Shown: positions 18,629 to 21,417 of the stretch, piece by piece | How the letters are laid out: each line of letters opens with the position of its first letter | Numbering within the stretch: the stretch's first letter is position 1 | Assembly: GCA_902785295.1 (NCBI GenBank) | Contig: CACZYK010000054.1 | Span: 1 to 51,019 of the forward strand | Source: an uncultured Clostridium sp. | Lineage (GTDB): Bacteria; Bacillota; Clostridia; Clostridiales; Clostridiaceae | Direction of reading: 5' to 3' | DNA: 51,019 bases | Notes under the pieces: generated by a model | Databases searched by the model: none | Told to the model about the DNA's origin: nothing | Seen by the model: only the letters and a program-made list of their open reading frames with translations | Position numbers and translations under genes: made by a program

Positions 18629-18656
18629 TTGCCTTTTAAAAGTATTATAATATAAT
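18629..18656 (+). promoter_or_regulatory. putative SigA promoter for the MgtE-N/CBS transcript
   Basis: TTGCCT (18629-18634) and TATAAT (18651-18656) are 16 bases apart, giving a predicted transcript with about 190 bases of leader before the main start codon. The -35 box is weak; the -10 is perfect. Confidence 0.5.
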
Positions 18657-18674
18657 ATAGAAGAAGGTAAGTAG

Positions 18675-18700
18675 GCAGACTATAAAGAGTGTAGGTCTGC
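18675..18700 (+). promoter_or_regulatory. leader hairpin P1
   Basis: GCAGAC (18675-18680) pairs with GTCTGC (18695-18700) around a 14-base loop, a few bases before the leader ORF's ribosome site. It has no T run, so it is not a terminator. Confidence 0.55.
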
Positions 18701-18731
18701 TAATTTTATGATAAAGAAGGCGGTGTAAATA

Positions 18732-18812
18732 ATGGAGGCTGGACCTGAACGAATAGACAATCCAAAACTGAATAATCTTCTAAGAAGGAAGAAGCCAAAG
18801 TTATTTACTTAA
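18732..18812 (+). CDS. 26-residue MgtL-like leader peptide
   Basis: ATG at 18732 follows an excellent Shine-Dalgarno (AAGGCGGTG at 18717-18725) and gives a 26-residue peptide beginning MEAGPERIDNP and ending LLRRKKPKLFT, then TAA. As I recall it, the enterobacterial mgtA leader peptide MgtL reads [17 protein letters not shown]. The shared plan is Met-Glu, acidic and proline residues, then an Arg/Lys cluster and a Lys-Leu-Phe ending. The ORF lies in the 5' leader of a gene with an MgtE N-terminal domain, and its codons overlap one arm of alternative RNA hairpins. A peptide this short could arise by chance, but ribosome site, position, resemblance and pairing agree. Confidence 0.6.
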   Translation: MEAGPERIDNPKLNNLLRRKKPKLFT

Positions 18813-18845
18813 AGATTTCCTCCTTAGAAGAAAATAAGGAGGAGA
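18776..18845 (+). promoter_or_regulatory. mutually exclusive anti-sequestor / Shine-Dalgarno sequestor hairpins
   Basis: Arm 1 (18776-18791, over the leader's Leu-Leu-Arg-Arg-Lys codons) can pair with arm 2 (18816-18831): TCTTCTAAGAAGGAAG against TTTCCTCCTTAGAAGA, about 15 of 16 positions including one G-U. Arm 2 bases 18816-18826 can instead pair with 18835-18845, which contains the main Shine-Dalgarno (TCCTCCTTA with TAAGGAGGA plus two further pairs; 8-base loop). The two helices share arm 2 and cannot coexist. The first opens and the second hides the ribosome site of the 18852 gene. Confidence 0.65.
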
Positions 18846-18851
18846 ATTATT

Positions 18852-20120
18852 ATGAAAAGATTATCTGTATTTTTATATTCTCAAATACTTGGTAAAAAAA
18901 TTTATGATGAGTTTAATGATGTATTAGGAGAACTTAAGGATATTTATGTTAGCACAGATGAAGGTTATCCTAGGGCAATAGGATATAATGTGAAAAAGGA
19001 TGGTTCTACATTTCATTATGAATTTAGAAGTATTGGAGTTTATGATGATAATGGAAAAATAGCAATAAAAACAGTAGGAAGCAGAGAAATACTTCCAAGA
19101 ACCTATACCTATCTTTTATCTGAGCATCTTTTAGATAAAAAGATAGTTGATATTAATGGAAAAAAGGTTGTTAGAGTTAATGATTTAAGTATTGCAGAAA
19201 TAGTAGGAGAATATAGAGTAGTGGCAGTTGAAACAGGTCCTCTTGCTAGATTTAGAAGAAAAGGCTTAGAAGGCTTTGGAAGATTTCTTTATAAAATATT
19301 TAATAAAGAATATGAAGATAAAATACTTACTTGGGATGATGTTGAATCTCTTGAAATGATAAATAATAATCTTCAACTATCAGATTCATATAAAAAACTT
19401 TCAACTTTACATCCAGCAGATTTAGCAGATATTTTAGAAGAACTTGATGAAGGGTCAAGAAAACAATTATTTGAATCTCTTGATGAAGATTTAGCAGCAG
19501 ATACATTTGAAGAAATGGAGGATGATGTTAAAGGAAGCATCATAAAAGACCTTTCAGAAACAAAAACAGCAGAACTTCTTGAAAATATGGGCAATGATGA
19601 AATTGCAGACCTTTTAGAAGAACTTGAAGGAGAAGAAAGAGAGAAGGTTTTAGTTAATCTTGAACAAGATGATGCTGAAGAGGTTAAGGAACTATTAAAA
19701 TATGAAGATGAAACCGCAGGTAGTATAATGTCTACTGATTTTATATCTTTTAGACAGACAGTAACAGTTGGTGAAGCTATCGATATATTAAAAGAAATGG
19801 ATCCTGATGAAGAATGTATGCATTATATATATGTAACTGATGAGGAAGATAAATTAAAAGGATTAGTAATATTAAAAGATTTATTATTAAAGGATTCTTC
19901 TACACCTTTAAAGGATATTATGGAAGAAAATATATCAACAGTAAAGCATGGAGATACAATTGATAATTTAACAGAATTAGCTGTAAAATATAACTTACTA
20001 TTAACAGCAGTTATAGATGAGGAAGAAAGATTAGTAGGTGTTGTGCAAATACATGATATAATAGATGAGGTATTATATCCACTATGGAAAAAGAAAAATA
20101 ATTTAATGAAGAAAAATTAA
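18852..20120 (+). CDS. soluble PRC-barrel / MgtE-N / CBS-domain protein, putative divalent-cation sensor
   Basis: 422 residues with no transmembrane segment. Residues about 1-165 hold two PRC-barrel-like units (FNDVLGELKDIYVSTDEG; VNDLSIAEIVGEYRVVAVE). Residues about 180-285 are the MgtE N-terminal superhelical domain (LHPADLADILEELDEG, IADLLEELEGEER). ETAGSIMSTDF starts a pair of CBS motifs reaching about residue 415. MgtE uses these domains to sense Mg2+, but this protein lacks the MgtE channel. Related clostridial proteins are, as far as I recall, often next to NRAMP-like Mg/Mn transporters; none lies here. Expression looks controlled by the leader described above. The start is ATG 18852 behind AAGGAGG. 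Confidence 0.82.
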   Translation: MKRLSVFLYSQILGKKIYDEFNDVLGELKDIYVSTDEGYPRAIGYNVKKDGSTFHYEFRSIGVYDDNGKIAIKTVGSREILPRTYTYLLSEHLLDKKIVDINGKKVVRVNDLSIAEIVGEYRVVAVETGPLARFRRKGLEGFGRFLYKIFNKEYEDKILTWDDVESLEMINNNLQLSDSYKKLSTLHPADLADILEELDEGSRKQLFESLDEDLAADTFEEMEDDVKGSIIKDLSETKTAELLENMGNDEIADLLEELEGEEREKVLVNLEQDDAEEVKELLKYEDETAGSIMSTDFISFRQTVTVGEAIDILKEMDPDEECMHYIYVTDEEDKLKGLVILKDLLLKDSSTPLKDIMEENISTVKHGDTIDNLTELAVKYNLLLTAVIDEEERLVGVVQIHDIIDEVLYPLWKKKNNLMKKN

Positions 20121-20232
20121 TTAACAAAAAACATAAATCAATTATATTGACAAAAAAGAACAATGGAATATAATAATATTAAAACTAAATAGAGTAAATA
20201 AATAAAAACTTAGAAAAAGAAAAGTAGCATTT

Positions 20233-20471
20233 AGGAGGAATACAGAGAAAAAAGCAAAGCTGAAAGCTTTTTATCCATAATTTATGTGAAGTGCCCTTTT
20301 GAGTTGGAATTTGAACTAAAGTAGGATTCCCCGGGTTCGCCCGTTATAGTGATAAAATATTAAATTTAAGTTTAGTATTTGACTTTAAGTTGGGATTTTT
20401 TAATCCAATTAGAGTGGAACCGCGAATAATATTCGTCTCTATATATTTTTTATAGGACGAATTTTTTTTTG
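20233..20471 (+). promoter_or_regulatory. cysteine-specific T-box leader with terminator
   Basis: The T-box AGAGTGGAACCGCG is at 20411-20424, followed by the terminator helix (ATTCGTC at 20431-20437 with GACGAAT at 20456-20462) and a run of nine Ts. Stem I carries the usual GAA-specifier context GTGAAG-TGC-CCTTTTGAG, making TGC (Cys) at 20292-20294 the specifier, in agreement with the cysK-cysE genes downstream. Uncharged tRNA-Cys would favour the antiterminator and read-through into cysKE. The 5' boundary is approximate. Confidence 0.88.
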
Positions 20472-20511: not shown

Positions 20512-21417
20512 ATGATTTATAATGGAGTATTAGATTTAATTGGAAAGACACCTATAGTAAAAGTTAATAATATGGTAGATGAAAATAGTGCAGAAGTTTA
20601 TGTAAAGCTTGAAAAATTTAATCCAGGTGGAAGTACTAAAGATAGAGCAGCCTTAGGAATGATAGAAGATGCAGAGAAAAAAGGATTATTAAAAAAAGGC
20701 TATACAATAGTTGAACCAACAAGTGGAAATACTGGAATAGGTCTTGCATTTATAGGAAGAGTAAAAGGGTATAAAGTTATAATAGTTATGCCTGAAACAA
20801 TGAGTAAAGAAAGAAGAGATTTAATAAAAGCTTATGGAGCAGAACTTATTTTAACAGAAGGAAGTAAGGGGATGCAAGGAGCAATTGAAAAAGCATTAGA
20901 ATATAAAGATAAAGAAGGATATTTTATTCCTCAACAGTTTGAAAATGAAGCAAACACCCAAAAACATTATGAAACTACAGCAGAAGAAATTTATGAAGAT
21001 TTAAGTGATGTAGATTATGTAGTTGGAGGAGTTGGAACTGGTGGAACAATTGTTGGAGTTGCTAAAAAGCTTAAAGAAAAAAATAAAAATATAAAAGTAG
21101 TAGCAATTGAACCAAAAACATCAGCAGTAATAAGTGGAGGAAGACCAGGAGCACATAATATACAAGGAATAGGTGCAGGATTTATTCCTTCAATATATGA
21201 TGAAAGTGTTATTGATGAAGTTGTAGCTGTTTCAGATTCAAATTCTATAAAAACAACAAAGGAGTTTGTAGAAAAAGAAGGAATACTATTAGGAATATCT
21301 TCAGGAGCAGCAATATATGTAGCTATGCAAATTGCTAAAGAGATAGGTAAAGGAAAGAAGGTTCTTGCAATAGCACCAGATGGTGGTGAAAAATATATTT
21401 CAATGGGAGTATTTTAA
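20512..21417 (+). CDS. cysK: cysteine synthase A (O-acetylserine sulfhydrylase)
   Basis: 301 residues. PLP-lysine motif KFNPGGSTKDRAALGMI (about residue 42), the Asn loop PTSGNTGIGLAFI, the phosphate-binding GGVGTGGTIVGV, and SSGAAIYVA near the C-terminus. It forms cysteine from O-acetylserine and sulfide. A strong Shine-Dalgarno (AGAAGGAG) follows the T-box terminator, and cysE begins 16 bases after its stop, giving a complete serine-to-cysteine pathway under Cys T-box control. Confidence 0.96.
   Translation: MIYNGVLDLIGKTPIVKVNNMVDENSAEVYVKLEKFNPGGSTKDRAALGMIEDAEKKGLLKKGYTIVEPTSGNTGIGLAFIGRVKGYKVIIVMPETMSKERRDLIKAYGAELILTEGSKGMQGAIEKALEYKDKEGYFIPQQFENEANTQKHYETTAEEIYEDLSDVDYVVGGVGTGGTIVGVAKKLKEKNKNIKVVAIEPKTSAVISGGRPGAHNIQGIGAGFIPSIYDESVIDEVVAVSDSNSIKTTKEFVEKEGILLGISSGAAIYVAMQIAKEIGKGKKVLAIAPDGGEKYISMGVF

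Follow-up and report, generated by a model that had tools for sequence, protein, structure and literature searches.

The window, by which we mean the whole 51,019-nt stretch of DNA that was analysed, carries a gene whose product matches the Pfam families PF03448 (2e-29), PF00571 (5.7e-15) and PF05239 (3.9e-9). The gene is preceded by a short ORF and by leader segments that can pair with each other in alternative ways (Table 1). A first-pass annotation of this DNA had described a 26-codon leader ORF with its own ribosome site, followed by two alternative hairpins, and both are borne out by the sequence. The helix between arms 1 and 2 (1:2; 18775-18791 with 18816-18832) has a calculated energy of −18.4 kcal/mol, and the helix between arms 2 and 3 (2:3; 18815-18827 with 18834-18846), which covers the Shine-Dalgarno (SD) sequence of the main gene, one of −16.2 kcal/mol. 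The leader start region is a fourth arm (arm 0) that had been missed; it pairs with arm 1 (0:1), with an energy of −18.1 kcal/mol in the window. The 2:3 hairpin is the sole terminator-like site flagged in the region and has a poor T tail. A scan of the leader against Rfam 15 gave no family at gathering score.

Table 1. Features of the leader and the gene downstream of it; numbers are positions in the window.
Feature	Position	Strand	Remarks
Promoter-like site TTGCCT-16-TATAAT	18629..18656	+	10/12 consensus matches
5′ hairpin GGCAGACT...GGTCTGCT with AT-rich tail, between promoter-like site and leader	18674..18709	+	
Ribosome site of the leader ORF, AAGGCGGTG	18717..18725	+	seen in the sequence
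Leader ORF, 26 codons, MEAGPERIDNPKLNNLLRRKKPKLFT	18732..18812	+	ATG at 18732, stop codon at 18810-18812
Arm 0, leader start region and codons 1-8	18725..18754	+	pairs with 18777-18809
Arm 1, Leu-Leu-Arg-Arg-Lys codons	18775..18791	+	pairs with arm 2 (open state)
Arm 2, anti-Shine-Dalgarno	18815..18832	+	pairs with arm 1 or arm 3
Arm 3, SD of the main gene (AGGAGG at 18837-18842)	18834..18846	+	pairs with arm 2
Putatively controlled gene, soluble 422-aa PRC-barrel, MgtE_N and CBS protein	18852..20120	+	Pfam

Five promoter-like sites were found in this region of the window, compared with 3.0 expected by shuffling, which is weak evidence when taken alone; a stretch similar to the site listed in Table 1, TTGCCTTTT...TATAAT, was noticed by eye in several relatives. 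A terminator-like hairpin 5′ of the leader ORF, like the one at 18674-18709, is present in 27 of 56 representative loci (10.4 expected by shuffling). The hairpin of the window is perhaps a remnant of an M-box terminator. In some loci in which an M-box and the leader stand in tandem, the terminator-like hairpin sits at the position expected for the terminator of the M-box. Among 67 distinct leaders, the place of the leader ribosome site is occupied by GGTGGTG-, GGGGTG- or GGAGTG-like sites. Downstream of the main gene, a T-box leader (RF00230, 118 bits) at 20202-20443 precedes a cysK-like ORF at 20512, and in many relatives, too, the orthologue is followed by a T-box.

Conservation of the leader and constraint on its codons

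The leader ORF was present in all 88 orthologue loci of a first set, which comprised 67 distinct leaders. A further 45 upstream regions were fetched from other genera of the order, and removal of duplicates gave 106 regions. We defined a leader signature as ATG or GTG followed by GA, proline at position 5, an SD sequence, and either at least nine codons or a frame open to the main start. The signature, complete with a ribosome site for the ORF, matched 101 of the 106 regions, while 20 dinucleotide-shuffled sets yielded a mean of 0.15. Since the signature requires GA and Pro 5, fixity at these sites is partly a matter of choice; when the GA requirement was dropped, 104 leaders matched, and residue 2 was acidic (Glu or Asp) in 101 of them. 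The five regions lacking the signature are L135, which has its proline at position 6, and L115, L137, L140 and L144. For counting, 96 of 99 leaders were kept, without L135 and without L139 and L141, whose GTG starts are doubtful; L139 and L141 remain in the count of 101/106 and in the codon tallies of 98 leaders, and their labels were left out of the 25 genus labels that the signature spans. De-replication resulted in 56 representatives. Three loci (L142, L143 and L145) belong to another family of the order, and in them the ORF starts with MECGPY... and continues without a stop over the anti-SD to the main start; no M-box was found in the 561 nt scanned upstream of them.

The titles and abstract openings covered by our literature search describe no such leader; the supplement of an RNA survey of C. 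novyi (PMC6429828) may list it. A pattern search for additional copies in 67 genomes of the genus, with a pattern that the leader of the window itself does not fit, returned scattered matches beside the leaders. Five of these were inspected: three are located within long reading frames, and two are open for only 6 codons. An ORF starting with MDIRYCPETSRDANG... ahead of L119, L125 and L131 was rejected as M-box sequence read as protein, because it lies inside M-box matches.

All 96 leaders are free of stops in frame 0 over codons 2-14, compared with 21 and 8 leaders for the other two frames, in a test for which the first 67 leaders were taken without length requirement and the added ones had been required to have 9 codons. 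A K-[LFVI]-[NK] motif occurs in 35 of the 56 representatives; shuffled peptides contained it in 6.2 cases on average and in 14 at most (1000 shuffles), and the other frames in 7 and 10. For 58 nearest pairs the synonymous fraction was 0.26 over codons 2-20 (null mean 0.23, maximum 0.28) and 0.23 over codons 2-6 (null 0.32). The strong selection at the peptide level that we had expected was not found; judged from these comparisons, the overall amino-acid constraint on the leader peptide is weak.

Codon usage differs between the leaders and the main genes. Glutamate is encoded by GAG 66 times and by GAA 18 times in the leaders, whereas GAG accounts for 18% in the main genes. The Pro-5 codon (98 leaders) is CCT in 92 cases, CCC in 4, CCG in 2 and never CCA, which makes up 61% of the proline codons in the main genes. 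The bias in this region is attributable to pairing, since codons 5-6 and the start region pair with arm 1, and a base-pairing role fits the bias of the Pro-5 codon. A hairpin formed by the start region itself (nt 4-8 with 12-16) was considered as the source of the GAG/CCT bias and rejected, because compensating changes are missing and the hairpin is broken in leaders with GAA and GAT; pairing with arm 1 is the better account.

The peptide had been called MgtL-like, a description that the orthologues do not sustain. They keep the acidic residue 2 and Pro 5, and mostly not the rest: a further acidic residue within positions 3-6 is found in 17 of 56 representatives and a second proline in 12, and the orthologue leaders lack an EPDP start of the MgtL type. 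In 25 of the 56, nucleotides 4 and 5 (the GA of codon 2) are both unpaired in 0:1; these 25 leaders encode Glu (19) or Asp (6), in a set that was selected for GA.

Four pairing arms and their predicted states

An alignment of 17 leaders by MAFFT did not line up the arms, and a column-wise count of covariation was therefore replaced by a swap test, in which arms were exchanged between distant leaders and native energies were compared with swapped ones for the 56 representatives. Native pairing was stronger for 0:1 (−17.8 versus −14.2 kcal/mol, p=1.7e-6; 43/56), for 1:2 (−20.8 versus −11.6 kcal/mol, p=4e-11; 55/56) and for 2:3 (−12.0 versus −10.4 kcal/mol, p=9e-5; 38/56). The last is the weakest of the three supported helices; the native combination had no advantage in 13 of 56 representatives for 0:1 and in 18 for 2:3. 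The control pairings 0:2, 0:3 and 1:3 received no support in this test (p=0.57, 0.97 and 0.38; 26, 18 and 27 of 56). Compared with mononucleotide shuffles, 0:1 ranked among the best 5% in 72 of 96 leaders, 1:2 in 91 and 2:3 in 58, with slices for 1:2 and 2:3 that clip some arms. In all 96 leaders, arm 1 has nucleotides common to 0:1 and 1:2, and arm 2 has nucleotides common to 1:2 and 2:3, a count that asks for at least 4 nt each and has no control; stricter criteria for shared arms left 76 of 96, compared with a shuffled mean of 1.75 and a maximum of 6. The coevolution of 1:2 and 2:3 in the swap test supports the two mutually exclusive helices, and with them the translational switch, that the first-pass annotation had put forward.

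The leaders were folded with a ribosome-sized block, which gives equilibrium sums under one energy model. For the 56 representatives, the predicted value for an unpaired SD was 0.29 in the free leader, 0.57 with a ribosome at the start and 0.17 with a ribosome on arm 1. Shuffling of the first 45 nt of the free leader changed this value to 0.46, compared with 0.29 for the native sequence. In the equilibrium fold of the window the 2:3 hairpin is predicted to be strong enough to keep the SD closed in all three states (about 0, 0.00), and switching there would therefore need a co-transcriptional order of folding. For transcripts that end before the SD, 1:2 is predicted with a mean probability, over the 56 representatives, of 0.70 when no ribosome is present (0.96 in the window), and of 0.05 when a ribosome covers arm 1. 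Re-initiation after translation of the leader was also considered and judged to be unlikely, because the stop codon of the leader is located 33-135 nt before the main start (67 leaders).

Magnesium context of the leader gene and its paralogues

That the downstream gene has a function in Mg2+ homeostasis, as proposed earlier, is supported by its protein family and by its genomic context. Of 60 related sources that were scanned, 26 (25 of them distinct) carry an M-box Mg2+ riboswitch at a distance of 54-216 nt upstream of the leader. The upstream sequence comprises only 500 nt in many of these sources, and absence of an M-box is for this reason weak evidence. The covariance model of the M-box (RF00380) gave no match in the window and none in the genome it belongs to, and in its genus no M-box at a leader gene was seen by eye among the matches listed, which come from 45 of 67 genomes and passed strict filters. 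The original description of the control as riboswitch-free applies to some lineages and not to those in which an M-box precedes the leader.

An M-box precedes 15 of 19 full-length paralogues (36-39% identical) by about 230-260 nt. We tried to recover leaders at 14 paralogue loci with a rule that required an acidic residue 2; seven gave no main start. The seven leaders recovered start with MDGDSTD (twice), MDDPDTD, MDDYDTD, MDDNDTD, MEGDGSTD and MDGDPYD, and contain 3-6 acidic residues among residues 2-10. An eighth leader, L154 (MDSDPYSQKN), has two acidic residues. One leader from an M-box paralogue, MDDPDTD, comes nearer to the EPDP of MgtL than the orthologue leaders do, and MDDNDTDEDN... 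is one of the acidic leader ORFs in M-box-controlled paralogue operons. Acidic leader ORFs between M-box and gene were observed at L089, L090, L091, L095, L096, L100, L154 and L155. In single folds, the start region folds onto the end of the ORF, with a long helix in six paralogue leaders and a shorter one in L155. By these predictions, the paralogue leaders are different from the orthologue leaders in sequence and the same in plan.

The next gene at the C. carboxidivorans locus (L051) encodes an Nramp protein that is closest to EleNRMT (7qia, 5.5e-116), with 10ky (4e-29) and MntH (4e-18) as the next matches. An ORF with the same motif is found at the same place in L052 and L054-L056. Three M-box-controlled paralogue operons include an Nramp gene, and the one that was compared with solved structures is again closest to 7qia. 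Such NrmT proteins are reported to transport Mg2+, and the function of the MgtE-like protein that accompanies them is described as open (PMC4072509). In the genome of the window (96% complete) one CorA was found, and a search for Nramp and MgtE membrane proteins found neither. Altogether, the genomic context points to a link of the leader gene to magnesium that is strong but indirect.

A candidate attenuator and its relation to known leaders

We lean slightly towards the view that the leader is a four-arm, ribosome-mediated translational attenuator similar to mgtQ-mgtB, in which ribosomes that are held at the start of the ORF, or abort there, would turn the gene on. We favour this model because the plan of the leader equals that of mgtQ-mgtB. 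In the absence of a ribosome, 0:1 and 2:3 would form and hide the main ribosome site. Full translation of the leader would also keep the gene off, with a ribosome covering arm 1 and 2:3 formed. Ribosomes that are held within about the first six codons, or abort and restart there, would cover arm 0; arm 1 would then be free, 1:2 would form, and the main ribosome site would open. Low Mg2+ would hold or abort ribosomes at the acidic start, and the gene would be switched on at low Mg2+, as are its relatives under M-box control. The leader would thus turn the gene on, probably when magnesium is low. A point against the four-arm model is that early acidic residues and prolines number just one each in most orthologue leaders, fewer than in the EPDP of MgtL. 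It is a tentative proposal, with a chance that we put just short of even, that clostridia possess here a ribosome-based sensor of low Mg2+ which arose apart from mgtL and mgtQ and acts in tandem with an M-box, and alone in the genus of the window. Abortive cycles at the acidic N-terminus would clear arm 0, and the M-box would act first, on transcription, and the leader second, on translation.

The model of the first-pass annotation involves three arms: arm 0 is idle, a leader that is empty or left early is on through 1:2, and a ribosome on arm 1 turns the gene off. The early formation of 1:2 predicted for transcripts that end before the SD, and its near loss with a ribosome on arm 1, fit this model equally well, and 1:2 is the best-supported helix. 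We nevertheless consider it somewhat unlikely, because 0:1 coevolves (p=1.7e-6) and the free full-length RNA is predicted to be mostly closed, more so than with a shuffled start. The claim that early drop-off frees arm 1 is not supported in that form, since it ignores arm 0; with arm 0 included, an empty leader is predicted to be mostly closed (0.29) and a leader with a ribosome held at its start to be more open (0.57). It appears highly improbable that the RNA itself senses Mg2+ or temperature, or that 2:3 is a transcription terminator, with translation of the ORF being incidental. Mg2+ stabilises RNA generally, the helices are real, and 2:3 is the one terminator-like site of the region; however, the other frames do not share the openness of frame 0, K-[LFVI]-[NK] is far more frequent than in shuffled peptides, the leader matches no Rfam family at gathering score, and the stretch that follows 2:3 is poor as a T tail and contains the main start codon.

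An attenuator of this build could also respond to another cue, such as a general slowdown of translation at initiation or elongation, the activity of EF-P or ABC-F, or the supply of tRNA, while the M-box alone reports Mg2+. The weak amino-acid constraint, the single early acidic residue in most orthologues and the separate M-box in many sister genera are consistent with such a cue, and in Salmonella the leaders mgtM and mgtP sense ATP and charged tRNA-Pro (PMC8092293). We regard it as quite unlikely, since the leader persists where an M-box is absent (by eye, among the matches listed) and since the beginning of the paralogue leaders is more acidic, a property linked to the destabilisation of ribosomes in MgtL.

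If the four-arm model with low Mg2+ as its signal is correct, ribosome-based control by Mg2+ would extend from enterobacteria to Gram-positives, and the MgtE-like partner of NRMT transporters would gain a regulator. Sister genera offer a natural experiment, since some of them have an M-box in front of this leader and others do not, and two paralogue lineages keep the acidic start while their leader sequences differ. With these contrasts one could examine whether sensing is done by the nascent acidic start, by the position of the ribosome or by the RNA.

The topology of the leader is that of Salmonella mgtQ-mgtB rather than that of MgtL. In mgtQ-mgtB, which follows a four-arm logic, a ribosome on the start of the ORF frees the ribosome-binding site; acidic residues of mgtQ lower translation of the ORF, and a Pro codon acts by base pairing (PMC8092293). 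In our leaders, too, the start region of the ORF pairs with an arm that alternatively pairs with the anti-SD, and the anti-SD can bind the SD of the downstream gene (p=9e-5). Both systems have a short ORF ahead of a Mg2+ gene, with its start region as the first of four arms, a read-out by hiding or freeing a ribosome site, an acidic residue 2 and a Pro codon involved in pairing. They differ in phylum and in the peptide, which is unrelated, and the leader described here is a 5′ leader, whereas mgtQ is positioned inside an operon. MgtQ-mgtB controls the P-type ATPase MgtB in the mgtC-mgtB operon, while a PRC/MgtE_N/CBS gene follows here; and mgtQ is acidic at positions 2 and 5, while a second acidic residue (positions 3-6) is limited to 17 of our 56 representatives.

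In the enterobacterial MgtL-mgtA system, too, a Mg2+ gene is preceded by a leader ORF whose second residue is Glu, and the proposed sensor is the behaviour of ribosomes at the leader start; MgtL acts through a Rho-dependent terminator (PMC11282234) and starts with EPDP, whereas the read-out here would be a ribosome site and the orthologues do not conserve the acidic/Pro run. In Clostridium acetobutylicum, M-box-controlled NrmT with an MgtE-like ORF represents the same gene family in magnesium transport operons; in contrast to that system the window has no M-box, and the excerpt of the report mentions no leader ORF (PMC4072509). In M. tuberculosis an M-box is also followed by conserved small ORFs, but there the M-box platform hides the small ORF's own ribosome site, and peptide and gene are different (PMC12810186).
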